In this document: positions 6,650 to 51,174 of the stretch, piece by piece | How positions within the stretch are numbered: position 1 is the first letter of the stretch | Layout: each line of letters starts with the position of its first letter | From: Heterotrichella gracilis | Lineage: Eukaryota > Sar > Xanthophyceae > Tribonematales > Xanthonemataceae | DNA length: 51,174 nt | Assembly (NCBI GenBank): GCA_032358255.1 | Contig: JAULBX010026208.1 | Coordinates: 1 to 51,174, forward strand | Direction: 5' to 3' | Notes under the pieces: generated by a model | The model's database searches: none | The model's input: only the letters and a program-made list of their open reading frames with translations | What the model was told of the DNA's origin: nothing | Made by a program: the position numbers and the translations under genes

Positions 6650-9120
6650 CTAGAAGGCCTTGGGCTTGAGCCTGGGCGCGTACAGCGCCACCCCATGCCC
6701 CAGCCACATGGCGTACACAAACTGGAACGCTGCCAGCCCCAGGAGCAGGTAGTTGCGCTTGCTGTCGTTGTCTGCGGGTGGGGCAAGGGGGGGCATGTCA
6801 CGATGGCGTGCACAAGGAGTTGGGGTACGTGTCACCAGGGGCAGGACATATCGCATGAGCCGCACATAGCCATGCATGCTAGGGCGCCATGGGTTGCACC
6901 TTGCAGGTCACGGGGGGTGGTTCACAAATGACCAACGGGTGGGGAACATAGACATGTCACATGGAGTCCATGATGTCCAAGGGGGTACATGAGTGATGGT
7001 GCAGGCAGGGTGCAGCGGATGCACATGGATACGGGTTTAGGGTTGGCGCATGCACACTCACGGTACTGCCTGGCTTCGTGGAACATGATCCGCTTCATGG
7101 TCTGCGTGAGGAACCACGCCATGCACAGGCTCCCGTACACCCACGACACGTAGTACGCCCACTTGCCTGCGCACACCATGCGCACACTCAGCATGCGCAC
7201 CCACCCACCACCAGCATGGCATGGTCCACTCGTCAACCCTAAACCCTAATCCAGGAGGAGTACCCACATGTCGATGCAGCATGGAGTTGCATGCATTGGC
7301 CCTGACTGCCCCGGGGACTTAACAATGTGGGCGCTGGGCTTGCACTGCCACGATGCAACATTTCAACACAGCCAAGCATTGCACTGGCGTATGTACAGCA
7401 GTGCACATCAATGCACTGCCAGCCTGTCACTGCCCAATGTACTGGAATCAGGATGCCCAGGAGGGAGAAATGAGCAATTGGAACGAAGGGAACAACGAGC
7501 CAAGTATGGAAATTATACAGGAATGAGATAGAAACGATGCACTCGTTAAAGCTGCCCAGCATGCGTACCGAATGTGACTGCAATGGCCAGCGAGATGCAC
7601 ACAGGCACAAAGGAGTACCCCGTGTATGCCGCGCTCTCCAGGAAGGGAACCACCCCCGGGATGCCCATCATGTACAGCAGCATCTTGAAGAGCATCAGGT
7701 GCGCAAACCATGCGGCCATTGCCCCCGTCGCCTGCACATAGGAAATTTACTTGAAGAAGCGGTTCTATGTGCGAGGCTACAACCTCCATCCATGGGGTTA
7801 AAACATCCCCATGCATAAGGTTGCAACCCGACACATGAGGCAACATATGGTTTTACACCATGACGCAGCACCAGCGTTTGCTGCAATTTACAGGCTAGGT
7901 GCAAGCACCTCTGCACTCTGTCTACTCAGGTGAAATGACCCTCTTGTAAAGAGCCACAAATCAAACACAAAGGGGCTGAGTCAGGCTTGATGACAGGTGT
8001 GCACGTCAAACCCAAAACCCAAAACCCTAGACAGTGCCGCTGCCGTACCGTGGCATACACCATGTCGGGCTTGAACCGTTTCCCCACCAGGTAGGTGAGC
8101 CCGACCATGATGATGTACGTCCACATCCCAAGGAAAGGGATGTACAGGTCAGGGGCGTTCTTGTCGCGCCTGGGCGGCAGGTAGCGCTGCCCACCAGCAA
8201 TCTGGGGCAAAACACGGGGGGGTTGATTACCATTGCAGACATGAGAGGGGTGCAGCATGGTTGAGGTGACGTCGAAGGAGTTTGCGCAGAGATGTGCAGT
8301 GCTCCTCACCTGTTCTTCCGTTCTCAAGTAGTTCCACTTGAGGTAGGGCGTGAGCAGCATCAACAGCTTGGTGCGCACTGCAACACAACCCCAGGTTGTG
8401 AGTCAGTCACCTCCGCAGAAACCAGGTCACCAAGTGTCACAACCCAGTCTCTGGCAAGCACCGCTTAGGAGGCTACGCACCATACTCGCAAGCAGGGCAC
8501 ACGTGTCACAACCCAGTCTCTGAAAAGCACCGCTTTGGGAGGCTACGCACCGTACTCGCTTGTCACGCTGAAGTGGTATTTGAGTGCAGGGCCCGAGAGG
8601 AAGCCAAAGTTGGACTCTACAAACGCTTGGCCCCGCTGGAAGTACGTCTCGCCCTGCTGCCTCAGCATGTTGGTTGCCAACCCGGCGACGAAGTTGTCCT
8701 GCTGTGCTGGCTGCACCACAGGACGCACGCTGGGTGACTCACCGGTGGTCAATGCTGGTCAACACAATGTGGTGAATTACACCCGTGGGCAGGTGCTACA
8801 GAGGTTGTTCAAAACGCCTCTTGCATGGATCCCACCTGAAGGAAGGCCAGCCCCGGGCCTGCTTGCCCTTGCTGCCCAGGTTGTTGTGGGTACAGGCCGG
8901 GCTGCACAGGTTGCTGAGGGTACAGGCCTGGCTGTTGAGGGTACACCCCTGCAGCGCCTCCATAGCCCTGTTGGACAGGCTGGGGAGCGGCAGGTCCCGG
9001 CTGCTGTGCTGCATGTGGCTGAGGGACGAAGAAGTTTGGCTGAGGGACGAAGCTTGGTTGCCCGGTAGGTTGGGGCACTGGTTGGCCAACACCGGTGAAG
9101 AATGGAGGTGGTTGGTTCAT
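6650..9120 (-). CDS. YIF1: YIF1 family protein (ER/Golgi vesicle transport)
   Basis: Model: complement(join(6650..6771, 7062..7166, 7569..7731, 8049..8201, 8310..8377, 8551..8698, 8836..9120)), 347 aa; every junction keeps frame. The true start is ATG at 9118-9120 (MNQPPPFFTGVGQ); a longer in-frame reading begins only at TTG. The N-terminal ~95 residues are a cytosolic Pro/Gln region with repeated GLYPQQP units. Next comes the YIF1 core: LKYHFSVTSEYVRTKLLMLL, then DKNAPDLYIPFLGMWTYIIM (the family's NAPDLYIP signature), and further helices including MAAWFAHLMLFKMLLYMMG and LAIAVTFGKWAYYVSWVYGS. The last exon ends in a helix with YLLLGLAAFQFVYAMW. YIF1 pairs with YIP1 in COPII/ER-Golgi membranes and Rab recruitment. 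The last helix bears a short extra tail, ALYAPRLKPKAF. Exon 2 has a tandem CAGCAG acceptor (8698 or 8701), adding or dropping one Gln. Confidence 0.88.
8434..8560. repeat. Tandem copy of a YIF1 exon end and splice donor inside the next intron
   Basis: The segment around the donor of the 8551..8698 exon (about 8502-8560) is repeated at about 8434-8489. Both copies carry the AACCCAGTCTCTG element and the GGCTACGCACC-TACTCGC junction. Read on the minus strand, the intronic copy still has GAGTATG followed by an intact GTGCGT donor. Confidence 0.85.
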
Positions 9121-10208
9121 TGCGCTCACTTCTGCTCTCAAGCAGAGTCACGCACAGAGGTAGCCAGTTGTGCACTGGTTAAGCTGGTGGACAGTCCAAG
9201 GGCCTTGCTGTGCTTTGGATTGCAAAGGAGTCAAGAACGGAAGCTTTGCATGCATATAGCCATCACATCGCCTGGAACCAAAGTAGCAGTACCGTCCTGC
9301 GATGATGTTGCGATGTAATAACAAATCTCGACAAAACAAGGTGTTTCGCCTTCGGAAGTGGTCTTCAAAAAGTTTTCCTTCCAAACTGAAAGTGCATTTT
9401 GTTTTTCCGTTTGTTTTGGGGGCTCAGAATGGTTTACCAGGGACTTGGAACGAAGAGCTCCGTCCCCACTGGACCTGCCACCGTTCAAACCGCATCGATG
9501 CTTCCATAAAGGCCGTTGCCAGGCTCACCATTTACTTGTTCCCTTGTAAAACACCCAGTGGCACCTTTTGGCGTGGTGGACCGCGTCCCTTTGACACCAG
9601 CCTGATCTTTGCAACCGGCAACCCATCAGTGCAGCCAGTAGCCACCTGCTCCTTGCAATACAGGCAGTTGCTCGGCGACAGATATCACTCGCCTTGGTTG
9701 TGAGGCCGCCACAGGTAGGTTGAGGGGTTTGCGGGGCTTTGCATCTGCGTGACGTCCGGTTTCATTTCGGGCACGAGTGTCTCTGGGAGTGGATTCGGGG
9801 GTGACATGGGAAAAGCCTACGACGTCACCTACACGGCAAATCATGCTGATCATCCCTCGTTTGAGGTGCTCCTGTGGCAACGCATTGTAGCGTGGTGTCG
9901 TGGTTTACTTATGGGATGGTTATCGTGTCCTTTGTGCGTTGAAAGACGCTGTGGAAGCTTGTTCAATTTCAAACCCTGTCAGAAGATATTTTACTGGTGC
10001 TGAGCCTCTCTGCAGCGTCCACTGCCTTGTATAGGCAACCGCTTGCTTCTCAAGCTAAAACTTGTGCATCACGCGGTGCTGTTGCGTGGTCTTGCCCGTT
10101 TTGCACGCCAGTGGTCGATTGGAAGCTTTTTAGGCCACGTCAACGATGGGCACTGAAAGGTCAGGAACGGTTGCCTCACAAAGCCGTTGCTTCTCTGTCA
10201 CAGGCACC
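9121..10208. other. Divergent intergenic region between YIF1 and the Gly-rich protein gene
   Basis: The region holds the 5' UTR and promoter of YIF1 (leftward) and of the 10209 gene (rightward). I see no coding exon and no clear TATA element. The in-frame ATG at 10146 would extend the downstream protein by 21 residues (MGTERSGTVASQSRCFSVTG...). Confidence 0.45.
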
Positions 10209-11651: not shown

Positions 11652-12532
11652 GGCGATCTTTGCTCCCGTTTTGTATCATGTACCCACTGGTTTTACTGCC
11701 AAATTTTGTTGGGCAAGTCAGAGCGTAGTCGCAGAGCACTTTATGGGCACTCACTACTTTATATACAGTGGTAGTAACATTTTGGTCCCGGCCTGTAGAA
11801 AATCTTTGTGTCATTTCGACTTGCTGACTGTTGTATTCAAGAGCACACGGGAAATTGATCACGGTAAAAAGCTTTACAGTGACATCTGAAGGGTCACAGC
11901 AACGGCTGCACATTGTGGCATAGAGGCTCGAAGCCTTGTGGCAATACGGTAACCTCGTCCAGCCTGCCTAAATGCATGTGCATCATGAACAGAACAGCAT
12001 GCAATCCAGGATGAGGTTCCGCTGCAGCAACTGAAATTATTTTAGCCATGCTTCCTGTTAGTAACCTTCAATTTTGTATTTGCAGCAACTGAAATTATTT
12101 TAGCCATGCTTCCTTTTAAGTAACCTTCAGATTCTGTGATGACTGTTTGTGTCATGACCCATGCGCCCGGCCTTTGCCAGGCAACCGATGCGGCATTATG
12201 ATACACATTGGGTGCAATCAGGAAGCTCAGTGCACTCTGCGTAGAAACTCTTGCGCAACGACTTCGAAATTCGTCAAAAAATGGTTCACATCATATCTGA
12301 AAGCGCTAGCAGCTTTGTAGCCAGGGTATCACAGTGATAGCAGTACAATCATGGTACAGACGTCAACAGTTAGGAAGGAGAATTTGAAGCTGCAACAGAA
12401 AGCAGCTTGAAGCGCGCGCTTTTAAAATTGCCACACAAAACTCCCATTGTCTCGACCTACGCCCACACAATACTCAAGCTGCGGCGGTCACGTGCTATTT
12501 TACCAGCTGTTTTGTCCAAAAAGACCTACTCC
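11652..12532. other. Convergent intergenic region before the RCC1 gene
   Basis: AT-richer sequence with no convincing gene. It contains the 58-bp-period tandem repeat at 12023-12137. It should hold the 3' UTRs of the rightward gene ending near 11651 and of the leftward RCC1 gene ending at 12533. Confidence 0.4.
12023..12137. repeat. Two-copy tandem repeat, 58-bp period
   Basis: Copy 1 starts at 12023 and copy 2 at 12081, both with TGCAGCAACTGAAATTATTT and then TAGCCATGCTTCCT. They differ at only a few positions over about 50 bp, so the duplication is fairly recent. It is not coding. Confidence 0.85.
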
Positions 12533-15500
12533 CTAACTCCCTGGCCCCGCTAGTACCACCAGGCTGTGGTCCATCCCCAGCGCCATCCCCAGCACCTCCT
12601 CCCCGTCAATATCAGCCACCAGTTCAGGCTGCGGCGCCCCCCCTGGGTGGCCCAACCCCAGGCGCCCATCTGCGCCGCTGCCCCAGCTGTAGGTCTGGGT
12701 CAGCACTGGGTGGTGGTGGTGGTGGCGGTGGCCTGATGGTGGGTGTGGCGGTGGCGGCGCCCCAGTAGCGGCAGTTGTGGTGACGTGCTGGTGTTGGCAT
12801 GGGTGGTGCTGGATCCATGGTGGTGTTGGTTTGATGGTGGGCGCATGGGTGTCGTCTTCTTCCGAAGGCACATCATCGGTGACCACGGTGGAGTGCACGC
12901 GCCCCGCTGCGAGTAGGGCAGCTGTGTTGCTGGGCAGGCCATACACTGACCTGTGGGACAGCAGGTAGGAGCTATTGTTCAAGGTTTAGGGTTTGGCTCC
13001 CAATCCTAAATCCTAAGACCTAAACAGGGTTCTACCTAGGTAAAATGCTCACCATACACAGGGGCAGGTAGTGACCAGGTGAGGCTGACCCATACACAGG
13101 GTGCACCCTGTGGGTCGTACACAGACCTGTGAGGCAGCTGTGGAAATGTACACTGCTGCGGAAAAATGTGCACTGCTGTTGCCTGGGCTCAATGCAGAGA
13201 GCACAGCCAGTCGCCTACACATGCTGTGGGCATTGGCAAATGGTGCGAGCATCAGTAGCATCAAGCGGGAAGAAATCACCTCCCATTCCAGCACAAGACC
13301 ACCTCCAAACCCTCCTTCGGGGTGCAATGCTATACTCCAGGTCAGCACCACATCCTACCTTGGGGTTGCGATGCATTCCTCCCTGCACTCTGCCCCAAAC
13401 CCCAGCTGCCCCCCGCCATTCCACCCCCAGGCCATCACATCCCCCCTTGGCGTCAGACCCAGGGAGTGGCCCAAACCTGCTGCCACCTGCAAGGGGGGCA
13501 TAACTATACTTATTCTTCGATGGTGATGATACATGATGGCATGCCCATGCCCCCCACCTGTTTCGCCTACCTTGCAGATGCCATTGCTTCCCCGTCCATA
13601 ATCTTACTGCGTACCCTGATCAGCGATTTCTATATGCTTATGATGGCAAGCATTGGCACTGTATCATATGATGATGATCAAATGATGGCATGCCCATGGC
13701 CCCCATCTATTTCGCCTACCTGCATGGTACCCAGGTCATAACCCTGTCATAACCATAACATGTGAGTACCTGCAATGAGGGCCAACACACGCCACATGGC
13801 ATTGGTCACACACCTTGTCCCCCCTCACCCCACACAAACCCTACAATAGCGGCCGTGCATGTGGTACATACCCTAATGAACTGCAGCGCCTGCCCCTCCT
13901 CTCCCCTCACCACCCAATCGCCGAGCCCGCCTGGCGCCGCATAGGCAGTCCCACCACTCACATGCCTGCCCAGCTGGCCCAGCGCATTGTCTCCAAAGCT
14001 GTACAGCACTCCGGTGTCTGCTAGCACTAGGGTGTGGTCAAAGCCACAAGCCACCTGGCACAAGCGCCCAGCGGCTCGTTTAGTGACAGTATCATACCAT
14101 AGTCCCATGTCTCACAAATCATTTGTGGCACAATACGCACCACATCATTATTCTTGCAAATCCCCCCCCCCCCACCACACACACACACCTCCTCCTTGCC
14201 TGTGTACCTTGCACTCACTGCAACACCTCCACCCCCCCTCACACCCACACACGACCCCCCACCACCCTCACCTGCGTGACACGCACCCCTTGCAGCACCT
14301 CCACCCTCCGGGGCTGCCACACCAGCCTCCCCCCCATGGCCTCCTCCCCCTCCTCCCCCTCACTGCCAGCCCAGGAGTGGCCCAGCCTGCCTGCGTGCGG
14401 GTAGCCCCAGCTGTACACAGACCCATCATCTGGGGATGGAAGAAACAAGGGTTTAGGCCCTACCCATTCAGATTCATTCCCTAAACCCACCCGTCAGCAC
14501 CACCCACCCACAACCCACCCGTCAGCGCCACCGCGTGCCCCCACCCAAACGCCACCTGGCGTACCCCCTCCAGCCCCGCCACGTGGCTGAACTCCCCTGC
14601 CTGGCGCACCCCCTCGCCCTGACCCAGCTGGCCCCGCTTGGAGGTTCCGCATGTCCACAGGCTGCCATCAACGCACACAGCGCCACTCACCACTCCTGCA
14701 CAGGGGTGGAAGGTCGTTGGGGACAGAAAATCGCGTAATTTCGCTTGCAGGTTTTGGGTCTAGATGATTGTGTCTTGTTTTACCGTTCATTATCATGATT
14801 CATTACAGCAACCCTCTGCCCCTGACCCAGCTGGCCCCTCTTGGAGGTTCCGCATGTGCACAGCCTGCCCAGCACACAGCGCCACCCACCACTCCTGCAG
14901 TATTGGTAGTGGCGAAGTGGTGCAGGGGGGATGACCTCGGGGGGTCACCGGGGACAGAGTTCCATTGCGATGTGACCAGAAAATATTCCAATTACAGCTG
15001 CGTTTGCCCTACTACAGTAATAAACGACTCCAACTGCACGAAAGCCTTCTCCATCCACCGTGCCACACCTGACCCACATGCTGCCACCACCTGCCTCCCC
15101 TCCATGCTGGTGACGTGGCGGGGTGTGGGGTCGACCCCTAGCGGGGTGCCTGGGGAAGGGGGCCGCCCGAGCTGGCCCTCCTTGCACCGCCTGGGTGAAA
15201 AGCACATGCGTAAGGTTCTCACAACCATCATTTGGGCACGTATTGTGCTAACTTGGTGCAGGGATTCAGCTCACAAGAAATCCGTGCACGTGGCTGCTTT
15301 TGCAGATCAATTGCATGCTGTCAGCCAAGGTAAAATCATGTGATCTTTAATTGTGGTTTTTTTGTGCTTGTGGGTGGAAGTGTGGGTTAGGGTTGAGGAT
15401 TTAGGGTTGCCACTTCCTCACCCCCAGCTCCACAGCCTGCCCGTGGAGTCAATGGCATAGCTCTGGTAGTGGCCTGCCCCCACCCGCCAGCTGGCATCGT

Positions 15501-34300: not shown

Positions 34301-34798
34301 TGAGCGGGGAAAAAGGGGCCAGGATGGAGGGGGTTGTCAGAATTTTTAGGAGGGAGGACGCTACTATGCAGCTGGTCAAGGTGGGCATGCAGAGGGAAAG
34401 GGGGTGGAGGTGGGTTTAGGGTGAGGTGGTGCGCAGGCCCATTCCCACGAAGAAGGCAACCTATCAGCTCGTCAAGATTGGGCAACATGCGTGGTTCTCC
34501 TGCACCTCCCTTCAGCATAACCACATCAAAACCCACATGGGTGCTCCTTTCGCACCACCATCCACCTCACCCACGCCTACCTTCGTGCTCCTCATGCGCC
34601 ATCCCCCACCACACCCACATCCACCCATGATACGACATCACATATACACGGTGGTAATCAGCCATTTGGCAGATCGTGATCATGGTCTTCTTGTGGTCGG
34701 TTACCATTCGTATCACCCCACCCCTTGTGCAGGAGCATGGCCGGTGGGCTGAGCCAGAGCCCAAGGAGGAGGAGGCGCAACAGCCGGTGGCGGCGTAA
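28330..34798 (+). CDS. HDS: 4-hydroxy-3-methylbut-2-enyl diphosphate synthase (HDS/IspG), plastid
   Basis: Model: join(28330..28452, 28554..28667, 28755..28847, 28944..29050, 29140..29320, 29502..29614, 29849..30026, 30636..30763, 31084..31273, 31809..31964, 32261..32455, 32715..32951, 33327..33486, 33988..34163, 34733..34798), 738 aa, about the plant length; all 14 junctions fit. It converts MEcPP to HMBPP in the plastid MEP isoprenoid pathway, with a [4Fe-4S] cluster and reductant. The transit peptide opens [15 protein letters not shown]. The TIM-barrel part begins at [17 protein letters not shown] and contains [47 protein letters not shown] and [18 protein letters not shown]. The large plant-type insert follows ([14 protein letters not shown] to EVRGEG region). 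The cluster domain has CPSC (Cys633, Cys636), then GCIVNGPGE (Cys667, Glu674), the expected iron ligands. Several introns hold decayed copies of neighbouring exon ends, listed separately. Confidence 0.95.
29993..30213. repeat. 83-bp tandem repeat of an HDS exon end and donor
   Basis: The end of the 29849..30026 exon with its donor and intron start (29993-30075) is followed by a close copy at 30076-30158 and a decayed third at 30159-30213. All keep CACTGAGGTGCGGACGGGGA or its exon form. The second copy could still code for [11 protein letters not shown] and keeps the GTGCGG donor. Confidence 0.92.
31231..31580. repeat. Intronic copies of an HDS exon end ([15 protein letters not shown])
   Basis: The exon end at 31231-31273 and its GTGCAGGG donor recur at about 31328-31385 and, more decayed, at about 31531-31590. 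The copies share GCACAGGGATGGGT, GGTGACGCTCAA and a G-rich intron start. Confidence 0.88.
33455..33785. repeat. Intronic copies of an HDS exon end ([12 protein letters not shown])
   Basis: The junction region at about 33455-33512 recurs at 33551-33607 with GATCAGGACG, ACAGGGCACCTG and GAGGTGGGTGTAA. A third, short copy (CAGATCAGGACGGGT) lies near 33757. Confidence 0.88.
34098..34485. repeat. Intronic copies of an HDS exon end ([16 protein letters not shown])
   Basis: The exon end and donor at about 34098-34180 recur at about 34213-34300 (GAGGTGGTGCGCAGGGCCAT kept), at about 34348-34400 and at about 34419-34485. They show increasing divergence. Confidence 0.88.
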
Positions 34799-36115: not shown

Positions 36116-39100
36116 ATGGAAAAAATTGTTCCCTTCGCGCTCGTTTGGAGCGTTCTAACGTCGCAACTGGTCCAGGTACGCTGCCCGGTCCCTACCACAG
36201 CACGCTGCCCGGTCCCTACCACAGCACGCTGCCCGGTCCCTACCACAGCACGCTGGTGTGTGGCAAAGTGAGAGAACCAGTGGCCCGGGTGAGGCTGTAA
36301 TTGCAGCTTGCTGCTTGGCAGGGCTTCACGTGCTGCAACATTAGAAAGAAAACCTTCTGCCGTTGAAGCCTTGGACAATGCATGCATATGTCCACAGTAT
36401 GCACAGTCACCGTGGCAGTGTCAGGCCGTTCTTGGCTCTTCTTACTGCGGTGAGACATACCCAGCTCACTATTATGCACACGCTCAATTAGCTAATACAT
36501 CCACCCACGTTGCTTCCTTCGTTCTGAGCCGTCTGCCCTTGGTACCTTTTCCCTACTACCCCCAACCACCCACACCCACACCCACACCGCTACCCCGCAG
36601 GCGCTGCCAGGCACTGCTCTCACACAGGAGCCACACGACACAGGTGTGCCACAATGTTCGGTTTTCCTCAGAAACTGTATGTGTGTGTTTAGGGTGTTGG
36701 GGTTGAGAGTGGTAGGTTTAGTATCTGCTTGCCCACCGTGGGAGCACCAGTATAGAGGCGCCTGGCGAGGCAGCAAAGCCCTATCTTGCACTCGCCACTC
36801 CATCATCTTTGCGATCCCCGCACACAGGAGCCACAAGTCACAGGTGCGCAATAACCATAAGCATCCTCCTGTGTAGGCTTTGCTTGCACACCACTGCATT
36901 GTGAGCCTGGCTAGGCAGCATAGCCCCATCTTGCACTCGCCACAATGTTATCTTTGCGGTCCCCGCATAGACACCTCTGGTCCAACCTTTATTTGCAGGG
37001 CTGGTGATCGAGTCCCCGGGGTCCTCGGTTGGGGGCTGCCAGTGCCTGGGCAGTCCCTACGCATCGGCAGCCTACCCCCACCAGTACATCCACTCTAGAT
37101 ACAGGTGGGTGGCCAGCACTTGGGAGCCATCTTGTGAATTGTTTGCGTGCCTGACCTGGCTTTACTGCTGAAATGCAAACAAATAATTGGTTGCGTGCTG
37201 TGGGACATACCATGATTGGGCGGCGGCGCCCACTGCTGCCGCCAACAGAAGACACCATAAACCCTCCAAAAGACACCATAAACCCTCCACTGCTGCACTT
37301 CGAACCAGGACGTACGCTGTGTGGGCACAAGCATATTCCCTACTCCCCTGTCGTCACCCGCTCTCCCCTCCCCTCCTGCAGGCAGTGCTTCTCCCCTTTT
37401 CCTGACCTGTTGGGAGGGAATGTGCCCTTGGCGGTGTGTGTTGTTGACCCCGCCACATGCGACTACTTCCCCTCCTTGCACCATAAGAGGGGGATGCACT
37501 TTGACCTGTGCCTGCCAGGTAAGCGCGGTGGGAGGGGTTGGCAAGGTTCGGTACGGTAGGCAGGGTTTTGGGTGGGTTTCTGCTAGGGTTGGATGGGGTT
37601 TGGTCGGGCTCCTGCATGCAGCGGCATACCCCATCAAGCCCCAAGGGTAAATGCAGGTAATGTGTGGCAACACGGCACAAGCAAATTCCATCTCAGGAGA
37701 TGAGTGCATATGTGGTGCCCTTAACCTCACAGATGCAGCTGCTTTCTGGATTACAAGCAATGATGAACCGAATGTTTGAGGAGATGTATTCAGCCTCTTT
37801 CCTTCTTGCGATTGCAGGGCTGCGCCGCGCCACCACCGTGTCTGGGTGCAGCTGTCAGCTAGGGTATGCCGTGGTAGACCCTAACGAAGGGGTTCCCTAC
37901 CACCGAGCGGGTGATGCCTGCATCCACACAAGCGACAAGGGGGAGCAACCATGGTGCCCAATTCAGGCGGGCAGCTGTCCTCAAGGCGCGGTCCCAGCGC
38001 ATGCGGACTGGGACTACTGCCCTCAACCCGCCCTGGACTGGCAAGTCGACTCCTATGATGTCAATGGCACCACCCTGTCTGAAATCCACTATTACTTCTC
38101 CCCTGGGGGGGGCGTCAGCCTGCAGCGTACCCTGTACAACGTGGCGCCAGCTCAGCGGGGCAAGATAGTGGGCAGCATTCAAAGCGTCACCTGCTTACGC
38201 CACCTGGCAGACTGCGAGGCGCTGTTGGACCGGACTGGGGCCTACATAGTGGTGGGTGGGCGGTGGTTCCGAGGTGGTCTTGTAAAGGCTACAACAAGTT
38301 GCATGGTCAGAAAGCCATGTCATGCTTGGGAGCACCCTTGGTTGGGATCACCATTTTTCGGGTTAATGAGGCAAGAGGTTATGGTGCGCCTCTCGTGTAT
38401 GGTATGGGGTACATGCTGCCAAGGTACTATACAGAAAGAGGATTTTTTGGTGGGTCATACATTAGACAGCAGTGCAATTTCACAGAGCATGTTCTTCAAT
38501 GTAGATTGCTAATTGTGCAATATAGTCCCCCTGATTAGCTGTGCTAGCCACCCCCGTTCCATTCTCCTATTGTGACCCCTGCAGCCTCCTTCCAAGAAGT
38601 AATTGTGTTGTCTTTCCCATCCCCACAGGCGCTGCCCATCCCCGACCGCACCTTCTACATGCCCATAGACCTGGTCAAGGAGTTCATAAATGGCACCATT
38701 ATTGCGGGGTCCCTGCCAGGCATGCATTACGACCCCAAAAACGCTACCCAGGTGGGTACGCAGGATCGGCAATCGGTATAACCAGCGCCAGGATTGAACT
38801 GCATTGTTCTGCATGTGCAGCTCGACTGCCAGTATGGCTACATTTCTGGGATCCATGCAGCCCACCAACTCTTACAGGTGCAATTACAGTTACGTATGGT
38901 GGCTACCGTAACTTCTCCTAAATGTTACCCAGGACCAGTAGAATGCATGTAACTCACTCACTCCATTATGCCAAAAGAGCATGCGCTCATGCGCGGCCTG
39001 TGGGAAGAGTAAATCTCACCTCGTACATAAATCACAATGTCGATTAACATTGTGACAATTGCCATTACAACTGCAAGTGGAACTAAAATATTGCAATTTT

Positions 39101-42100
39101 TTCCAGGCGGATGCGGTCCCAAGAGTCCCTGGCGAGGTCGGCGACGTCGTTTTTGGAGGGTTTATGGAGGGTTCTGTGGTGGAGTGCGCCTTCAGAGTGT
39201 GTGGTCACGACAGGCTGTGGGTGGACGGCGATTTCATGGGCAAGTCTGAGGGGGGCAGGGGTCCTAAGAGGTGCCTCCCAGAGTGGAAATCCCTGTGGAT
39301 GCAGGGGCTGGCCCCAGTGGATGTGCTGGTCGACCTGCGCAGCGTGCAGGTGGGTTACCCTAGGGTTTTGGGTGTAGAGTTTAGAGTTTAGGGTTTGCTG
39401 GTTGACCTGCGCAGTCTGCAGGGGAGTTGCTCAACACCCATGCTTTAGGGCTTAGGGTTTAGGTTTTAGAGTGTGTTAAACCCTTGGGTAGCGTGCAGGT
39501 GGGTGTGCAGAATGTACCTATTGCTGTGCTCGTTTTTGGTGTTCACCCACTTCCCCTGTTTCGGCCCCCACCCGCTTCCCCACCCAACCCCTACTTCCCC
39601 CCTCTTCAGGAGTCCAACAGCGCACTCCACCTTGTGCTGGCATCCGCATCTCTCACTTGCACATGCACCCACGTGGCCAGCTGCACAGCGGCAACCTCCG
39701 GCACCCGCCTGCAATTCACGGAGCAACCCTGGGATGCGCTGACGCACGCCTCGGGACTGGAAAAAGAAGGCTGGGACAAGGTCCTGGCTCCGATCCTGGA
39801 GCTTGGTTTTGGGTCCCAGGCTGTGTGTAGCGGCAACGTGTGTGAGGTTACCACGGGGGGTGACCAGGCGTGGCGGGGGGCACTCACCGCACTGTACTCC
39901 ATACAGGGAGACCTGAACCAAGGTGGGTGATGGCAAGACCCTTTGCTTCCCCGGCTTGTGCTTTGCGGGAAGTGCGCTTTGTATTGGATTCTCACCCCGC
40001 CATTGTTGACCACAGTTGATCCTGTATTCCCCTCTTATGCAGTGGCGGAGGTGCGCCATGTGGCCCTGCGGGGGCCCCAGCCCCCGCCACCTGGCAGGCG
40101 GCCGCTGGCTGTGGTGTGGTGGGTGGCGCTGGCGCTGGGCGGGGTGGGGCTGCTGGCGGTGGTGGCGGCGCTGGCGGTGGGGGTGACTTCGCCACAAATG
40201 TACAACTCTTCCTCCTCCTCTGGGTGAGTATCTACAGGGTTTAGGATTCAGGGTTTAAGCAATGTACTTGGTAAACTTCAAAAAGATGCTGTCCTGTGGA
40301 CGAGCATGCAGTTGTCGCACATTATGCGTAGCAATCCACTAGCCATTCGCATTGTCCATCGCATTGGCAAGAAAGAGTCCTTCTATATTTGTGCCTTACC
40401 AAACCATGTTTCTCTCCTAAAATGTGCTTGTGGGGACGATCTACTGTAATCATGATTTGGATGCGTTAGTGGGTATCATGAGTGCCACTTATCTGCCCTC
40501 AGCTTTGGCCATGCTGCACACTTAACAATGCTGATAAAACATTGATGTGCATCAATCGTTGGTGTATGCATGAGGAGAAGGCAAAGAGCCAGAGAGGGAC
40601 AGGTTTGGTGCATGCCGCCTATCTATGGACCAATGCGTTGTTCTGTTTTCATTGCAGGAGAAGGTCAAGGGATCCAAGGAGCCAAAGGAGTACAAATTCC
40701 ACCCTCCTGCGCAGCAACCCCGGGGACCAGCATGCGCTGTACGACTTCACGGAATTTGACTGGCATGTGGTGCCGGAGCAGGTGCAGATACTCAAAAACG
40801 AGAAAGGGGAGGAAAGCATGCTGGGGAAAGGCAACTTTGGGACGGTACGTGGAACAGGGGCTGACATCTCGTGCACATTGATACCCCTGATCTAGGGTGC
40901 AAGCGCGACAAAACGTGTGCATCTTTGATAATATTAAGGGTATGAAAGCGTCCATGCAGAGTCTAGTCGACCCCAACCTCAGATCCTACCCCAGGTGCAA
41001 ACTATGCTTTAGTTCCAAAGCAAATTTTCCAACCACACCAGTCTTCCAACGCACCCCTATACCTCTCCCTGCCCAGGTGTACGAGGCCCTGCTTGACGGC
41101 GCCCTCCCCTGCGCTGTGAAGGTGCTTGACTCCCTTGCCATGACCCACAGCGAGAGGGACATGGTCATTCGCGAGGTGGCGCTGCTGCAGAGGTGCAGGT
41201 CGCCGCACATTGTGCAGGTGCGCGGGTGTGGACCCTAGCTAGGGTTTGGGTGTAGGGTGCAAGGCTTGCCCCATTGCCATCGGCCTGCCCTGGTTTCTGT
41301 ATCCTCATATACTTCACCTCAACTCCACCGTCTGAGGTGTTCCTGCAGAATCACTCCCCCACTAGCATGCACTGAGGTCCCTCCCACCCCTACCCCCCCT
41401 TGCAGTTCCTTGGCGCCTGCTTCCATCCTGACCGCACCCTCATTGTGATGGAGCTAATGGAGGGGGGGGACCTGTTCAGTGCGATTGGGAACTTTGGGAG
41501 GGGGGAGCTGGGGTGGTACAACAGGTGGGTGGTGGTGGTTGTGGTGGTAGTGGTCGTGGTTGTGGGACGATGGGGTGGTACAATTAGGTTGGGTAATGGT
41601 GGTGGTGGTGCAGGGCAAGGGGTGTAGGGAAGGAGGTGATGGGTGGTGTAGCATGTGGGTGGGTGGGTGGGTGGGGGAATGGGCTTTGTGTGAATGTGAG
41701 GTACCAACAACTTAGAATTGTTTTCCAGGTAATCATTCAAGAACATGATCGATGGCCATTACATCATGAGAATGGGAATGACCACAAAGGAATTACATCG
41801 TGGGAATGGATCACAAAGGAAATGTACGGGGATGGCACCGCATCATAATCTGCAGGTCTTACACTTTGCATTTCCCCCCCATTGCCTCTGCAGGGGGAGC
41901 CAGATAGCGCTGGATGTTGCTCAGGGCCTGCACTACCTCCACCACCGTAACATAGTCCACCTGGACATAAAGAGCGGGAACATATTGCTGGGCAGGCAAG
42001 GGGTCGCAAAGGTATGGCTTTAGGGTGTAGGGTTTGGGGCTTTTCCTGCGCTATGCAAAGCCTTAGTTACACCACGACGACTTTCTCCTTGGGGTGCAGG

Positions 42101-43313
42101 CATGTTGCACAAATCATGCGCGCTGACTTAACTACATCTCTCGGGTAGTTAATGCTGGGCTATACCAGAAAGTGGGAACAAGAGTTCGATCATGCAAAAG
42201 AAATGCTGGTCCACTTCAATTTTCCTAGAAATTTCGTAGAAGGGGCGACAAGAACACTACCGCCTGCCCTGCATATTGAGACGTGGGCCTGACCCAAAAT
42301 GGGTGGCCGAGCAGATGTTGGCGCCAGAAACCCTAAAGTACCAAACAAAACCTCTCCAATTTGTCACCACAGCCCCTGGCCCCCTCCGCAGGTTTCCGAC
42401 GTGGGCCTTGCCCAGATCATGCACGCGCAGTACATCTCGCGGGTTTCCGAGCTGCCGGGCACCTGGGCATGGATGGCGCCTGAGATCATCCTGGGCACCC
42501 ACCTCACTGTGCGCGCAGACGTGTACAGCTACGGGGTGGTGCTGTGGGAGCTGGTCACGTGTGAGCGGCCAAGGAGGGCCATGCGGCGGGCAGTAAGGTG
42601 CGGACGGCGGTGGTGGCGGTGGTGGTTGTGGCGGTGGCTGTGATGGTTGTGGCGGTGGCTGTGGTGGTGTGAGTAGAATGGCAGGTGGGTGCGTATGTGT
42701 ATAGCTACGGTGTGGCGCTGTGGGAGTGGAGGAGGGGATGTGGCGGGCGCACAGGGTGCGGATTAGTAGGGAAAGTGGGGTGACGGGGATGTCAGGCAGG
42801 AATGTACTAGCATCACTACCTGTCAATTATTGAAGTTTACCCCTGGAAGGGGATATGCGTACATATGCCGGCACGTGGGGCGTGGGTACCGGTGGCGTAC
42901 AGGGTGTGTGTGCTTGTTTCTCAAGCATGTGTAGTTTTAGGTTTATGACATGCCCATGTGTAGGTTCATGTGTGGGTTGTGACGTGCGCATGGGTAGGCA
43001 TAGCCAGCGCTTCTACACACTCCACATTGCACCTGCCGCCGCCCATCATCTTTTCACTCCCTCATTCACTCCTTTGTACTGCCGCCCACTTCACAGGGTA
43101 CCCGAGGAGTGCCCCCCCTCGATCTCTGCCCTCATCACCGCATGCACTGATGCCGATGCCAGCAGCCGCCCACCCATGGACCAGGTGATTGCCAGGCTGA
43201 GGGACGGGATAGAGCAGGGGGAGGAAAATCACGAAGGGGAGGAGTGGGTTGCTGGCAGGGGAGAAAACAGACCAAAGCGTGGAGTAGGCTATTCCTGTGC
43301 ATGCTTACTGTAG
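36116..43313 (+). CDS. Receptor-like kinase, copy 1 (novel Cys-rich ectodomain, one TM helix, TKL-like kinase)
   Basis: Model: join(36116..36175, 36601..36643, 36999..37104, 37382..37518, 37818..38251, 38629..38751, 39107..39349, 39610..39922, 40043..40223, 40658..40844, 41077..41217, 41406..41524, 41894..42011, 42392..42597, 43097..43313), 875 aa; all 14 junctions fit. Signal peptide [20 protein letters not shown]. The ectodomain (about 25-505) has many Cys and N-glycosylation sequons (NGTT, NGTI, NATQ), with blocks such as [39 protein letters not shown] and [10 protein letters not shown] match it to no known domain. TM helix at about 509-533 ([20 protein letters not shown]). Kinase from about 595: [11 protein letters not shown], Lys624 in [18 protein letters not shown] (718-728), SDVGLA (737-742), MAPE (763-766), [12 protein letters not shown]. 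The HRD Arg is Leu and DFG is DVG; Asp720, Lys722, Asn725 and Asp738 are kept, so it may be active. A surface-signalling role is inferred. Confidence 0.85.
36179..36250 (+). repeat. 24-bp minisatellite, three perfect copies
   Basis: Three identical units beginning CGCTGCCCGGTCCCTACC lie in intron 1 of receptor kinase copy 1, right after the donor. Copy 2 of the gene lacks the array. Confidence 0.95.
36760..36970. repeat. Intronic duplication in receptor kinase copy 1, includes an exon-2 echo
   Basis: A segment at about 36760-36825 (CTTGCACTCGCCA ... TCTTTGCG) recurs at about 36903-36970. Between them is a copy of the end of exon 2 with its donor (GGAGCCACAAGTCACAGGTG at about 36827-36846), which resembles exon 2 of kinase copy 2 more than exon 2 of copy 1. 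Confidence 0.8.
39359..39475 (+). repeat. Telomere-like TTTAGGG-rich intron segment
   Basis: Degenerate and perfect TTTAGGG units (for example TTTAGAGTTTAGGGTTTG at about 39380-39397 and GGGCTTAGGGTTTAGG at about 39446) fill part of an intron of kinase copy 1. They are mixed with an echo of the exon end GTTGACCTGCGCAG at about 39401. Confidence 0.75.
42691..42762. repeat. Intronic echo of the kinase exon encoding [12 protein letters not shown]
   Basis: The 3' part of the 42392..42597 exon with its donor recurs, decayed, within the following intron: GTGTATAGCTACGGTGTGGC, then CTGTGGGAG and GGGTGCGG. Confidence 0.82.
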
Positions 43314-44355: not shown

Positions 44356-47300
44356 ATGGAGAAGACAGCTTTCGTCGCGCTCGTTTGGAGCGTTCTAGGT
44401 TGTCAGTTGGTCCAGGTATACCCCTCCCTTGCTGCAGAACGCTAGTCTTATGGTGGCGTTGTGAAAGAGCCAGTGGCCTGGAAAGGCTGTGAGTGCAGCT
44501 TGCTGCTTGGCAGGGCTTCGCTTGATGCAATAGTAGAAAACGTACCACCTACCGTTGGAGCCTTGGGCAATGCATGCATACGGCACCAGTCACCATCGCG
44601 AGTGTTAGGCAGGCCTTGGCGCTTGTACTGCGTTGAGACATACCCAGCTCATTGTATTGCACACCACTCAGTTAGCTACTGCATGTAACCCATGCTTATC
44701 CCTTCGCTTTGAGCACACGGCCATTGTACCCTGTCTCATACCCTCCCATACCACCCCCACGCACCCACACCCACACCCCGCAGGCACTGCCAGGCACTGC
44801 GCGCACACAGGAGCCACAAGTCACAGGTGCGCAATAACCATAAGCATCCTCCTGTTTAGGGTTCAGGGTGTAGGGTTTGCTTGCACACCACTGCATTGCA
44901 AGCCTGGCTAGGCAGCATAGCCCCATCTTGCACTCGCCACAGTGTAATATTTGCGGTACTTGCAGAGACACCTCTGGCCCACATTTGCAGGGCTGGTGAT
45001 CGAGTCCCCGGGGTCCACTGTTGGGGGCTGCCAGTGCCTGGGCAGTCCCTACGCCTCAGCAGCCTACCCCCACCAGTACATCCACTCCCGATACAGGTGG
45101 GTGGCCAGCACATGGTCAGCAAATTAATGGGAAAGATATACTTTTAAAGCTTTAAAAAACTTAGTTTTAGTTCAATAAGTGCTGTGAGACATACCATCCA
45201 GCGCCCCTCACTGCTGCCGCTGTCAAAGGAACCCCTAAACCCTAAACTCTCCACAGCGGCGCTTCAAACGTTGAGGACGTACGCTGTGTGGGCAAAAAAC
45301 TTTTGCCCTACTCACCTGTCATCACCTGCTCTCCCCTCCCCTCCTGCAGGCAGTGCTTCTCCCCCTTCCCTGACCTGGTAGGGGGGGAGGTGCCCCAGGC
45401 GGTGTGTGTAGTGGACCCCGCCACGTGCGCCTACTTCCCCCCCTTGCACCACAAGAGGGGGTGGCACTTTGACCTGTGCCTGCCAGGTGAGCGGCAGGGT
45501 TTGGTAGGGTTCAATGTAGGGTTTGGTAGGGTTTCTGCATGCAGCGGCATACCACATTCAGGGGACAGTTTCCAGGTAATGTGTGGATACATGGCACAAC
45601 GCCTATCTCAAGGGTCGGGTGCATATGTGGTGCAAATTGATCTCACAAATGCCGCCTACCCAGCTGTCTTCCGCATTGCAACCAATGATGAGCCAAATGT
45701 TGCGGACTTGCATTGACCCATTTTCCTTCTTGCGATTAATGCAATTGCAGGGCTGCGCACCGCCACCACCGTGTCTGGGTGCAGCTGTCAGCTAGGGTAT
45801 GCCGTGGTAGACCTTAGCGAAGGGGTTCCCTACCACAGAGCGGGCGACGCGTGTGTCCGCACATTCGAGAAGGGGGAGCAACCATGGTGCCCAATCCAAC
45901 CTGGCAGCTGCCCCCAAGGCGCGGTCCCAGCGCACGCAGACTGGGACTACTGCCCTCAACCCGTTCTGGATTGGCAGGTTGACCACTACGATGTCAACGG
46001 CACCACCCTGGCTAGCACCCACTATTATCTCTCCCCTGGATCGGGTGTCAGCCTGCAGCGCACCCTGTACAACGTGGCGCCAGGGCAGCGAGGCAAGTTG
46101 GTGGGCAGCATCCACAGCACCACATGCTCGCTCGGCGACGTGGCGGATTGTCAGGCGCTGTTGGATCGGGTTGGGAATTACTTCACGGTGGGTTGGTGGG
46201 GGCTTGGAAAATGCCTTCCTAGGTGGTTGCACGAAGCCCTATTAGGGGGGCTAGGTGGTCAGAAACCCTCGGTGCAGATGGGTAGACAGTGGGCGGCAAT
46301 TAAAGTGCCACCTGCTTGCGCCACCTGGCGAACTGCGAGGCGCTGCTGGACCGGACCGGGGCCTACATAGTGGTGTGTGGGCGGTGGTTTAGAGGTGGCC
46401 TTGTAAAGGTTGATCATGGTCAAAAAGAACTTGATTCATGTTCAGCAAGAGCTTGATAACAATCAGCTTGGTCCATGTTTGTTGGATGGTTGGGAACACC
46501 CTTGTTGGCTTTAATGGGGCAAGGGTTATGGTACGCCTCTCGTCTGTGGTATGAGATACATGCTGCCGAGGTACGGAAAGAGGATGCCTGTGTTTTGGAG
46601 GGTCATGCTTTAGATAGAAGTGCAAATTACAGAGCATGTGCTTCTAATGTCAGATGTTGATCAGCCGTGCAAGTCACCCCCGTCCCATTCCCACCATATT
46701 GTGACCCCGGCCATTTCCTACGGAAGATAGGGATCACAATATGTTGGGAATGTAAGTTTTCTCTCCCAACCCCACAGACGCTGTCCATCCCCAAGCGCAC
46801 TTTCTGCGCGCCCAGACCTTCTAAAGACAGTCAACGTTTCTTTCCCATCCCCACAGGCGCTGTCCGTTGCCAACCGCATCTCCTGCGCGCCCAGGCCTGT
46901 CCTAAATTTGATCAGGGATTTCATCAATGGCAGCTTTATTACGGGGTCTCTGGCGGGCATGCATCACGACCCCAGGAATGCTACTCAGGTGGGTACTCCC
47001 GGGGACACGTGGCTGACATGGTTCAGCAGGACTCAGCATGCTATTGCAATTTCGATCCCATGATCGGTTGCAATAGGATGAGGGATCGAGAATCGGGATA
47101 ACCAGTGCCAGGACAGAAGTGCCTGGCAGGTGCACGGGTGACTGCCAATATGGCTGCAATTGCTTGCAGCCCACCCATATCAACAGTCCAATAAAGATCA
47201 CTGGTACAATCAGTAACCAAGCTCTGTTTATTGTTCTCTTGAATGTTAGCCAGTCGGAGGTGGTACCCAATCAGATTGGTACCCAGAATACAAGTACCTG

Positions 47301-50300
47301 CATCACAAACTAAGAATACAACAAGTGCCAATATAATAACTTCAATCTCGTAATAAGTTAAATTGGAACTAAGACAGACAATGAAATGTCATCAGTGTTT
47401 CCTGTGGGCGTTTTGTTTCTTTCTTTCTTTCTTTCAGGCGGATGCGGTCCCCAGGGTCCCTGGCGAGGTCGGTGACTTTGTTTTTGGGGGGTTTACGGAG
47501 GGTGCCGTGGTGGAGTGCGCCTTCCGGGTGTGTGGTCATGACAGGCTGTGGGTGGAGAGCGATTTCATGGGCAAGTCTGAAGGGGGCATGGGGACCAAGA
47601 GATGCCTCCCGGAGTGGAAATCCCTGTGGATGCAGGGGCTGGCCCCGGTGGATGTGCTGGTTGATCTGCGCAGCGTGCAGGTGAGTTGCTTAAATCCCAC
47701 GTCCCAGGGTATAGGGTTTAAGTATGCTGAAACCTTAGGGTAGTGTGCAGGTGATTGTGCATGGAGTACTTTTGTTGTGGTCCTGATTGGTGCTCACCCG
47801 CCACTTCCCCTGTCCTCCCCACCCCTGTTTCCTCCCCTCTTCAGGAGTCCAACAGCGCACTCCACCTTGTGCTGGACTCAGCATCCCTCACTTGCACATG
47901 CACCCACGTGGCCAGCTGCACAGCGGCAACCTCCGGCACCCGCCTGCAATTCACGGAGCAACCCTGGGATGCGCTGACGCACGCCTCGGGACTGGAAAAA
48001 GAAGGCTGGGACAAGGTCCTGGCTCCGATCCTGGAGCTTGGTTTTGGGTCCCAGGCTGTGTGTAGCGGCAACGTGTGTGAGGTTACCACGGGGGGTGACC
48101 AGGCGTGGCGGGGGGCACTCACCGCACTGTACTCCATACAGGGAGACCTGAACCAAGGTGGGTGATGGTACAATCCTAGCGGAAATGCAAGGGTCATGGT
48201 TGGCATGATGTGAAGATCCCACAGCAAGATGCAACCTGGGATGCGTCTTTGTTACCAATGCAAGCCGGGTGATACAAAACAACAGGATGAGCTGCTTGCC
48301 GCAGCCCTTTTCGGCCATAGACTCAAGTCACATTGCTGTTTTTTATCCTGATTCCGGCCCCCCTGTTGATCCTTCTCCCCATAATGGCTCTTGACGAAGT
48401 TTCCCTTCATTGTGTTCAATCCTCGTTTCCCGCCTTGCGCAGTGGGGTGGTGCCCCAAGTTGTTAAGGACCCCCTCCTTGTTGACCAGAGTTGATCCTGT
48501 CTTCCCCTTGTCTGCAGTGGGGGAGGTGCGCCATGTACCTGTACGCCAGCCCCCTCCACCTGGCAGGCGGCCGCTGTCTGTGGTGTGGTGGGTGGCGCTG
48601 GCGCTTGGGGGGGTGGGGCTGCTGGCGGTGGTGGCGGCCCTGGCGGTGGGGGTGACCTCCCCGCGGATGTGCAACTCTTCCTTCTCCTCTGGGTGAGTAT
48701 CTACAGGGTTTAGGGTTGAGGGTTTAGGCAATGTACTTGGTACTTGGTTTAGGCAATGTACTTGGTGGGTACCTACAAAGTTTAGGGTTTGGGTGAAGGG
48801 TTTAGTCAATGTAGGTGGCCCTGACAAGCATGCAGGTGGCACATTTATGTATGGCAAACCATTAGCCATTCGTATTGTCAGTGCATTGGTGGGTGTCAAA
48901 CGCAATGTCATAAAGAGTTTTGTGTGTTGTTTTATGCCATATCAAATCAGGTTTCTCTTTGAATATGCGCTTGTGGGCACGATCTACTGTACTTCATCAT
49001 TAGAATGTCATGACTGGATGCGTTAGTGGGTTTAGAGAGTACCATGCTTATCCGCCCTCGCTTTTTTTTGTCATGTGCACACCTAGCAACGCCGAGGGAT
49101 ATTGATGGCTATCAGTTGGCTGTGCTTTGCAGGGGCCTCCGGGCACCACGTGAGTGCACGCAGATTTGGTGCGCGCCACCTACGTATGAGGCAATAAGTT
49201 ACCTTCTTTCTGTGCAGGGTGAGGTCCAGGGGGTCTAGGGGTTCAAGGAGCCAAAGGAGTACAGATTCCCCACTCCTGCGCAGCAATCCCGGGGACCAGC
49301 ATGCGCTGTACGACTTTACGGAATTTGACTGGCATGTGGTGCCGGAGCAGGTGCACATACTGAAAAACGAGAAAGGGGAGGAAAGGATGCTGGGAAAAGG
49401 CAACTTTGGAATGGTACGTGGTGGCACAGGGGCTGGCACCTTCTGCAAATTTACCCTATTGTAGGGTACAAGAGATATAAATGTGTTCACATGTGATGTT
49501 TTTGGGATATGAAAGGGTCCATGCAGACTCCACCAGACCCTACCCCCACACCCCACTTCAGGTACAAGTTGTGCTGTAGTTCCAAAGCCAAATCCCCAAC
49601 CCCAACCCTTGTCATAACCCCTGCTGGAAGGTGCCCTCCCCTGCGCTGGGAAGGTCCCCGACTCTCCTGCCATGCCTTGCTGTATCGAATCCTTGACCAA
49701 AACCCTAGACCAAACCCCAAACCCCTCCCTGCCCCAGGTGTACGAGGCGCTGCTCAACGGCGCCCTCCCCTGCGCTGTGAAGGTGCTTGACTCCCTTGCC
49801 ATGACCCACAGCGAGAGGGACATGGTCATTCGCGAGGTGGCGCTGCTGCAGAGGTGCAGGTCGCCGCACATTGTGCAGGTGCGCGGGTGTGGATCTTGGC
49901 TAGCATTCTGCTCCCATTGGCATGCAGCAAACCCCATTGCCATGCACCGTATCCCTTTTACCATGCGGTGAATCTCCCATTGCCATGCACTGAGTACCTC
50001 AAATGCGCCACCCCCCCCCCCTCCTCGCTGCAGTTCCTTGGCGCCTGCTTCCATCCTGATCGCACACTGATTGTGATGGAGCTGATGGAGGGGGGGGACC
50101 TGTTCAGCGCAATAGGGAACTATGGGAAGGGGGAGATGGGATGGTACAACAGGTGGGTGGCGGTGGCGCTAGTGGTGGTGTCGGGGGATGGAAAGGGAAG
50201 GGAAGGAGGAGGTGGGTGGTATCGCATGTGGATGGTTGGGTGAAAAGTGGATTTTGGGAAAAGGGGAGGATGCATCAACAGATGAGAGGAAAATCAAGTG

Positions 50301-51174
50301 CTTCTAATGTAATTACTCAAGACCTGACCATTGGCAATTACATCATGGGAATGACAATGATCACAAAGGAATAACCACAAACCAGTTACATATCGGAATT
50401 GACCACAAAGGAATTGTAAGGTGATTGGGATGGAACCAAATATAACTGCAACGCGTTCACTTTACTTCCCCCTCTATGTTTGTGCAGGGGGAGTCACATA
50501 GCGCTGGATATTGCTCAGGGCCTGCACTACCTCCACCACCGTAACATAGTCCACCTGGACATCAAGAGCGGGAATATACTGCTGGGCAGGCAAGGGATTG
50601 CAAAGGTATGGCATGAGTGTGTAAGATTTAGGTTGTATTGTTAGGGTCATGCCTATATCCTGTAAAAGTCACGTGGTCCACCTGGGCAAGAATCAACAAT
50701 CCACAATGGCGGGAGAAAAAGAGGGACATGCGGGGATGGGCACCATGCAACTGGTTACGTACGCTGCCCTTAACCCTAAACCCTAATCCCACTTGGGCAA
50801 GAGAGATTATAAGTTCAAAATGGGGGGAGAAGGAGAGGGAACATGGGAACATGGGCCTGGCCCAAGTATTGTATGCGTAGTGCATCTCGGGGGGTGCTGA
50901 GCGGCACAGCACATGGGCATGGATGGCCCCAGGGATCAAACCACACGCCCATGGGGCACCTTATAACGCCTCCCAAGCCTTATAAAACCGTGCCAAAACT
51001 CTGCCAAACGCCACTAAAGCCCCTGACCTTGCCTCTGCAGGTTGCGGACGTGGGCCTTGCCCAGATCATGCATGCCCAGTACATCTCTCGGGTTTCTGAG
51101 CTGCCGGGCACCTGGGCATGGATGGCGCCTGAGATCATCCTGGGCACCCACCTCACTGTGCGCGCAGACGTGTA
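44356..51174 (+). CDS. Receptor-like kinase, copy 2 (3' end beyond the window)
   Basis: Model: join(44356..44415, 44784..44826, 44991..45096, 45350..45486, 45751..46187, 46857..46988, 47438..47680, 47845..48157, 48518..48692, 49218..49413, 49738..49878, 50034..50152, 50488..50605, 51041..>51174). It has the same exon order, phases and domain order as copy 1. Exons differ in length only by whole codons (exons 5, 6, 9 and 10). Signal peptide [20 protein letters not shown]. The kinase begins [11 protein letters not shown] and keeps [11 protein letters not shown] and ADVGLA in place of HRD and DFG, so these substitutions are shared and ancestral. The window ends inside the codons for RADVY; the final kinase exon is missing. 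Exon 8 is identical in sequence to copy 1 over almost its whole length, while exon 6 is strongly diverged (44 versus 41 codons). The frame is open throughout, so nothing marks it as a pseudogene. Confidence 0.83.
46285..46410. repeat. Intronic echo of kinase exon 5 end, resembling copy 1
   Basis: Within the intron after exon 5 of copy 2 is a segment homologous to the end of exon 5 and donor of copy 1 (38162-38288): CTGCTTGCGCCACCTGGC, GGGGCCTACATAGTGGTG and GAGGTGGCCTTGTAAAGG. The exon end actually joined in copy 2 (46094-46187) is a different version. Confidence 0.85.
46769..46910. repeat. Double acceptor and exon-6 start in kinase copy 2
   Basis: CCCCACAG followed by an exon-6-like start occurs at about 46771-46830 and again at the acceptor used in the model (46849-46910). 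Both continue with CGCTGTCC and TGCGCGCCCAG. Confidence 0.82.
49621..49805. repeat. Echo of kinase exon 11 upstream of the real exon
   Basis: 49621-49676 resembles the exon at 49750-49805: CTGCTGGAAGGTGCCCTCCC, CTGCGCTGGGAAGGT and CTCCTGCCATG. It lies in the intron ahead of the exon. Confidence 0.78.
50762..51145. repeat. Telomere-like motif and echo of kinase exon 14 in the preceding intron
   Basis: CCCTAAACCCTAATCCC lies near 50772. At about 50875-50937 a decayed copy of exon 14 (CATCTCGGGGGGTGCTGAGC, then CATGGGCATGGATGGCCCCA) precedes the real exon starting at 51041. Confidence 0.78.

Follow-up and report, generated by a model that had tools for sequence, protein, structure and literature searches.

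In a 51,174-nucleotide stretch of Heterotrichella gracilis DNA (hereafter the window), which is the entire contig C370 of a genome of 68.5 Mb in 903 contigs, several genes have introns that hold partial copies of an adjoining exon edge, here called exon echoes. Such copies exist beyond the window as well. An exon-derived copy was found in 66 of 344 predicted introns, and 43 pairs, a number reached in 0 of 400 random placements, join an exon-intron junction to the intron where 15.3±3.4 were expected. Lengthening of introns is usually ascribed to transposons and drift. We tentatively favour, at somewhat less than an even chance, the view that introns here grow via duplications left by staggered-break repair, i.e., fill-in plus filler, and concentrated at exon borders.

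The final sample of 259,099 bases combined the window with 150 kb chosen by location, namely 130 kb from arbitrary positions on six contigs known via the kinase search and 20 kb from C525, the kinase contig. Small loci surrounding hits to the kinase and HDS genes completed it. Gene models were made with a hidden Markov model (HMM) gene finder, self-trained on the genome's own DNA and later extended, and the 344 introns are internal introns predicted in this way. Introns longer than 1,500 bp were classed as non-genic and predicted exons shorter than 30 bp were merged back into introns. Intron counts are approximate as false exons split a few introns (e.g., HDS 34372-34409), and some of the predicted exon ends are wrong where an echo competes (e.g., HDS 31084-31375, which by eye ends at ~31273). 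A Pfam domain was present in 9 of 10 predicted proteins tested, one having none: Acyl_transf_3, YIF1, RCC1, GcpE, kinase and Myb among proteins of the window, and Response_reg, Vps54_N and NAD_binding_4 outside it. Pfam backs the gene names YIF1, RCC1 and GcpE (HDS) and the protein kinase domain, and in the HDS protein the 343-position GcpE profile is spread across residues 29-669.

Pairs of copies were sought with an all-offset ungapped finder, used in place of blastn, which missed distances below 50 bp, probably on account of the self-diagonal. A pair was retained at z ≥ 4.5 over shuffles of both copies. This filter removed 27 of 167 blastn pairs and the remaining pairs beat their shuffles, so low complexity was rejected as their cause. 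At a score of at least 17 there were 271 local direct pairs in the 259 kb, where an order-3 Markov shuffle, made once, gave 2, and an earlier 239-kb sample had given 257 against 2 in order-3 shuffles. The copies are direct: 181 kb held 140 direct pairs and 16 non-hairpin inverted ones, a further 52 inverted pairs being hairpins. An assembly artefact is unlikely for most echoes because the 66 exon-derived pairs span 66-97% identity; one cluster (C13:4440-5300), in which 98% copies flank a 100-base N gap, could be such an artefact.

The 66 exon-derived pairs are those left once overlaps were removed. The junction is spanned in 43 of them, and 37 copies lie on the donor side and 29 on the acceptor side. 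The copies are short and local, with a length of 20-110 bp in 64 pairs and a source-copy distance (d) of 70-230 bp in 57. The distances are two-humped (50-130 bp in 39 pairs, 170-230 bp in 17, and only 4 in between), and several arrays step by ~85-115 bp (e.g., C13 5622 and C525 16455), while the second steps in HDS are ~190-210 bp. The exon part usually exceeds the intron part (medians 36 and 10 bp, 63 pairs), an asymmetry to which the definition of the classes itself contributes. Clear examples outside the window are a copy of 16 intron bases plus exon start at 97% identity (C277 9122-9199/9303-9380), a copied exon end with its donor at 92% (C79 20606/20728), and ~110 bp copied at 86% (C640 3104/3325). 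Of the first 323 introns 62 had an exon-derived copy, with 0 of 53 below 150 bp and 22 of 50 above 500 bp, longer introns offering more room. The original prediction spoke of tandem copies. This holds for a minority that abut their source (e.g., YIF1 and the first HDS echo), but a spacer, usually of unrelated sequence, separates most young ones: the ratio of copy length to distance is at least 0.8 in only 2 of 22 young exon-derived pairs (at least 88% identity; median 0.33), and in 4 of 40 pairs over all classes.

The bias toward junctions was measured by classing pairs according to the position of both copies, after removal of any pair overlapping a better-scoring one, and setting the counts against 400 random placements that kept the pair geometry. 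With copies at least 50 bp apart there were 122 such pairs. Besides the 43 junction-to-intron pairs there were 23 from exon interior to intron (20.4 expected), 29 within introns (35.9), 20 in which both copies touch an exon (22.6), 1 edge pair (5.9), and a marked deficit of non-genic pairs, 6 against 22.0±4.3. The same trend was seen in the 130 kb alone (54 pairs; junction 18 against 7.4, non-genic 2 against 9.4), in all DNA outside the window (junction 37 against 13.1), and in the window alone (6 against 2.5, reached in 10 of 400 placements). Repeats less than 50 bp apart (58 pairs) are an internal control for both effects, as they had neither a junction excess (4 against 3.4) nor a clear intergenic deficit (9 against 11.5), and were somewhat over expectation within introns (33 against 24.8). 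The proposed local duplication biased to splice junctions is therefore supported, uniform-model simulations also falling short (see below). Nicked or R-loop DNA, proposed along with it, is only a possible cause. The bias survived the comparison with matches elsewhere, carried out on 259 kb rather than genome-wide.

Within the window, exon-edge copies had been claimed for YIF1, RCC1, four introns of HDS and both kinase genes, and copies were located in all of them:

8490-8559, reverse strand: YIF1 source, donor and intron start together with 9 bp from the end of the exon (8551-8729 by HMM).
8420-8489, reverse strand: YIF1 donor echo, an abutting tandem copy (gapped pair, 87% identity).
14608-14700, reverse strand: RCC1 source, exon start with acceptor edge.
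14811-14899, reverse strand: RCC1 acceptor echo within the intron upstream (88% identity, d 203).
29993-30080, forward strand: HDS source, end of exon 29849-30026 with intron start.
30076-30163, forward strand: HDS donor echo 1 of 29993-30080 (90% identity).
30181-30211, forward strand: HDS donor echo 2 (partial) of 29993-30080.
31228-31302, forward strand: HDS source, exon end (~31273 by eye; the HMM overran into the first echo).
31325-31407, forward strand: HDS donor echo 1 of 31228-31302 (78.6% identity).
31519-31590, forward strand: HDS donor echo 2 of 31228-31302 (73.6% identity).
33453-33511, forward strand: HDS source, exon end at 33486 with 25 bp of intron.
33551-33609, forward strand: HDS donor echo of 33453-33511 (90% identity; the genome-wide intron search found the neighbouring exon).
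34101-34189, forward strand: HDS source, exon end at 34163 with intron start.
34215-34309, forward strand: HDS donor echo 1 of 34101-34189 (78% identity).
34423-34476, forward strand: HDS donor echo 2 of 34101-34189 (80% identity).
36821-36854, forward strand: kinase 1 donor echo of 36621-36654, not in kinase 2 intron 1.
39391-39428, forward strand: kinase 1 donor echo of 39319-39356, with a telomere-like spacer (kinase 2 not significant, z 2.2).
42685-42726, forward strand: kinase 1 echo on the donor side, copied from the exon interior (42509-42550).
46289-46402, forward strand: kinase 2 donor echo of 46101-46217.
46758-46819, forward strand: kinase 2 acceptor echo of 46837-46898.
49621-49674, forward strand: kinase 2 acceptor-side echo of 49750-49803, with no counterpart seen in kinase 1.
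50844-50938, forward strand: kinase 2 echo on the acceptor side, copied from 51043-51137, an older one that is faintly traceable in kinase 1 (z 5.8).

YIF1 is the weakest of these examples: its copy does abut the source, but the gapped match takes in just 9 exon bases and the ungapped finder reports only an intron-intron pair (8431-8469/8500-8538). The window also has two hairpins, at 5944-5998 (98% self-complementary) and 33886-33933 (79%). The sequence at 33.88-33.93 kb is also present on C258, C344 and C14, and because of this recurrence it is probably a short hairpin repeat element. Close to its start, kinase 1 has a perfect 24-bp unit repeated 3.2 times (36178-36255), with no such repeat by eye at the corresponding place in kinase 2. 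As C525:1-519 matches the 3' end of kinase 1 at 92%, the kinase cluster may continue from the contig end into C525.

The echoes decay roughly, by our own estimate, as neutral copies facing a conserved exon. In the 66 exon-derived pairs mismatches at codon positions 1, 2 and 3 amount to 15.5, 12.5 and 22.3%, codons with a single change comprise 115 synonymous and 137 non-synonymous cases, and in-frame stops occur in 10 of 816 echo codons.

Echoes also come and go between the two kinase paralogs, which have 12 introns in common. Clear echoes are present in one paralog only for introns 1 and 6 of kinase 1 and introns 4 and 9 of kinase 2. The intron 12 echo is common to both but old, intron 11 is doubtful, and introns 2, 3, 5, 7, 8 and 10 have no echoes in either kinase. 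The echo-bearing intron is the longer one in all four cases, by 191 bp (d 200), 96 bp (72), 292 bp (188 plus 79) and 92 bp (129), and the suggested growth of introns is to this extent supported, but only moderately, as echo-less introns differ in length too. It had also been stated that the coding version stays intact, and this is so except in one case, intron 4 of kinase 2. There the stretch holding the echo (46284-46409) is 88.1% identical to the exon end and intron start of kinase 1 (38163-38288), while the exon end that kinase 2 itself uses (46101-46217) has only 71.6% identity. Because the echo outmatches the exon end in use, the two copies may have swapped roles, or the exon end may have been replaced.

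In the reading tentatively favoured here, these patterns arise as follows. A segment X of ~20-110 bp, mostly straddling an exon-intron junction, would be doubled directly to X-spacer-X, usually with an unrelated spacer. A staggered break would be the source, as filling of both overhangs duplicates X, and filler, sometimes a telomere-type repeat, would be added ahead of end joining. If X includes a donor or an acceptor, the outer copy would stay in use, and the inner one would be spliced out and decay as an exon echo; the protein would be unchanged because the gene goes on using the outer copy. Splicing presumably ignores the echoes, and either breaks or survivors would be concentrated at exon borders.

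The possible part of telomere-type filler draws on the composition of introns and spacers. AAACCCT, AACCCTA and AGGGTTT are the top three intron 7-mers apart from N runs (323 introns), and telomere-type words occur in introns at 10 times the exon level or more and at ~4 times the non-genic level. They are oriented, with TTTAGGG after donors and CCCTAAA before acceptors, and genome-wide this gene-oriented polarity is ~2 to 1 (46 against 26 and 214 against 102 matches, overlaps unmerged). Telomere-type motifs cover 3.9% of donor spacers (G-type) and 8.2% of acceptor spacers (C-type), compared with 1.3-1.5% of introns and ~2.3% of the matching intron end. Genome-wide there were 46 matches to a donor-like motif with telomere-type sequence after it, or 44 sites after hand merging. 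At 6 of these 44 unannotated sites a same-strand partner lies 58-123 bp off, with a chance of ~0.04% each; a similar unannotated series for the acceptor pattern was seen at C195, C263, C189 and C158 among the first 100 of 214 matches. TTTAGGG-type arrays open contigs C70 and C140 (among the first 100 of 209 matches); these and the stretched GcpE profile of HDS would fit a green alga. The base-composition demands of splicing may explain the motif polarity, and telomerase healing as sole cause was rejected as the polarity follows the gene and not left or right. The link between telomere-type sequence and echoes is suggestive only.

Several observations weigh against growth of introns by staggered-break repair at exon borders. 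First, the one-step gain of X-spacer-X and the breaks at exon borders are both proposed events. Second, of 118 flanks of pairs with at least 85% identity, 23 are alike beyond the copy (z > 3), and some events are therefore plain tandem duplications. Third, the length argument from the paralogs is weak because the six echo-less introns vary too, by 24, 35, 94, 240, 100 and 33 bp. Fourth, telomere-like stretches are only slightly commoner in echo introns than their length predicts (24 against 17.9 expected, z 2.09), and the polarity of the motif by gene direction is not predicted by gene-blind telomerase healing. Fifth, among young intronic pairs 22 of 33 are exon-derived, which rejects a tandem model only weakly (p 0.02), and the shortfall of the uniform models presented below depends on assumed decay and indel rates.

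A related view, somewhat unlikely in our judgement, makes the exon-intron borders themselves duplication hotspots, at which break and repair tied to the splice junction repeatedly copies exon edges inward, often in ~100-bp steps. Co-transcriptional structure or microhomology resembling splice sites would provide the tie. Introns would then grow inward from the exons, and an echo and the exon end in use could trade places, so that coding sequence is replaced.

It is unlikely, on present evidence, that no targeting is needed, i.e., that local duplication is even, that exon-internal duplications are purged, that exon-derived pairs stay recognisable for longer, and that the pattern reflects survivorship. 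A junction-spanning duplication is harmless by geometry and echo decay does look neutral. This was explored by simulation, with 2,500 events for each of three uniform models (tandem duplication, X-spacer-X insertion and copy-paste). Only events that left exons intact were retained, and introns mutated neutrally and exons at third positions only; the comparison omits 21 of the 122 pairs (1 edge pair and 20 with both copies touching an exon). Over the four main classes the simulated exon-derived share was 37.6% for tandem, 27.2% for X-spacer-X and 32.4% for copy-paste. The tandem model alone thus yields 38% among detected pairs, but the observed share is 66 of 101 (p ~1e-8). Within introns only, 66 of 95 pairs are exon-derived against 47.5% in this most favourable model (p ~1e-5), and the non-genic share is 6 of 101 against a simulated 20.8-24.4%. 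Survivorship is likewise hard to reconcile with repeats less than 50 bp apart, which lack the junction excess. Because the rates were assumed, the simulation evidence is strong but not final.

Out-of-register templated repair appears quite unlikely. Here a broken intron end would anneal to a motif resembling a splice site, copy into the exon of the sister chromatid and be rejoined, thereby pasting an exon edge into the intron. G-rich donor and C-rich acceptor motifs do recur in introns, the frequent intron 7-mers include the donor-like GTGGGTG and the acceptor-flanking AAACCCT, and the copies are spaced and direct. The excess of exon part over intron part would also fit, but is subject to the class definitions mentioned above, and the echo-bearing paralog introns are mostly longer by more than the copy alone, although echo-less ones vary too. 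Spliced mRNA was rejected as the template of the junction-spanning echoes because these include intron bases.

Retention of echoes as functional decoy or alternative splice sites is very improbable. The copied GT or AG is kept in 37 of 45 cases against ~31 expected, but this signal is weak (p 0.035) and open to ascertainment bias from where alignments end, while the neutral-like decay with its in-frame stops and the turnover between kinase paralogs speak against such a function. Insertion of a mobile element or introner with exon-like ends is scarcely credible: introner families exist in other genomes, as dispersed families that raise intron content in many genes (PMC9860276), whereas no such family was seen for three whole introns searched genome-wide (simple repeats and very common words being skipped). 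Two of these matched nothing beyond themselves and the exons next to them, while the HDS intron in addition matched the hairpin repeat and one 113-bp piece elsewhere.

Internal gene duplication was reportedly treated by Gao and Lynch in 2009. Tandem duplication within genes has been described in several eukaryotes (PMC3443670), and in the potato RdRp gene a tandem duplication across an intron-exon boundary created a new intron (PMC4974935). The likeness is that a local direct copy, including exon and adjacent intron, spans a splice junction and that splicing sets what stays coding. In potato, however, one duplication made a new intron, whereas here copies lie in pre-existing introns, most young ones stand apart from their source, and roughly one in five of the sampled introns is affected. 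Intron gain by tandem duplication (the AGGT model), which would place the copied exon end at the 3' end of a new intron, was rejected for the echoes, as their median distance to the splice site at the other end of the intron is 300 bp (63 pairs) and the kinase paralogs have the same intron with and without an echo. Gap filling at staggered breaks is likewise a source of direct repeats, but in that account short repeats flank the new intron (PMC3443670), while here the exon-edge copies are within existing ones.

The small tandem duplications made by CST-Pol alpha-primase at 3' protruding ends of breaks, by fill-in of both overhangs and subsequent end joining, are also short, direct and local (PMC8355091). 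They differ in that they arise at Cas9-nickase breaks, and in the accessible text no junction bias is stated and the word "intron" is absent (PMC8355091). Similarly, where telomere repeats are inserted at breaks in horse and human, the flank can be directly duplicated around them, and at a few horse loci they lie between direct duplications at staggered breaks (PMC7215372). Such duplication is rare in horse (3 of 66 loci, with 2 more that are complex), and in human the intronic telomere insertions fit random placement (PMC7215372), in contrast to the junction excess found here, and many spacers here hold only degenerate telomere-like stretches or none. The original prediction knew of no described system with this signature in green algae. 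Boundary-crossing duplication itself is known, singly, from potato, but junction-biased exon copies in introns were not reported in the literature searched (titles and abstract openings, most subscription papers lying outside), nor was this prevalence. What may be new is the combination of such copies in about a fifth of introns with the junction excess.

About a fifth of the sampled introns thus record copying from the adjoining exon edge, in events of different ages. If this is true genome-wide, the process could be measured for its rate and step size, for the structure of its breakpoints and for competition between splice sites. Echoes might also supply new donors and acceptors, and one of them may have altered an exon end.

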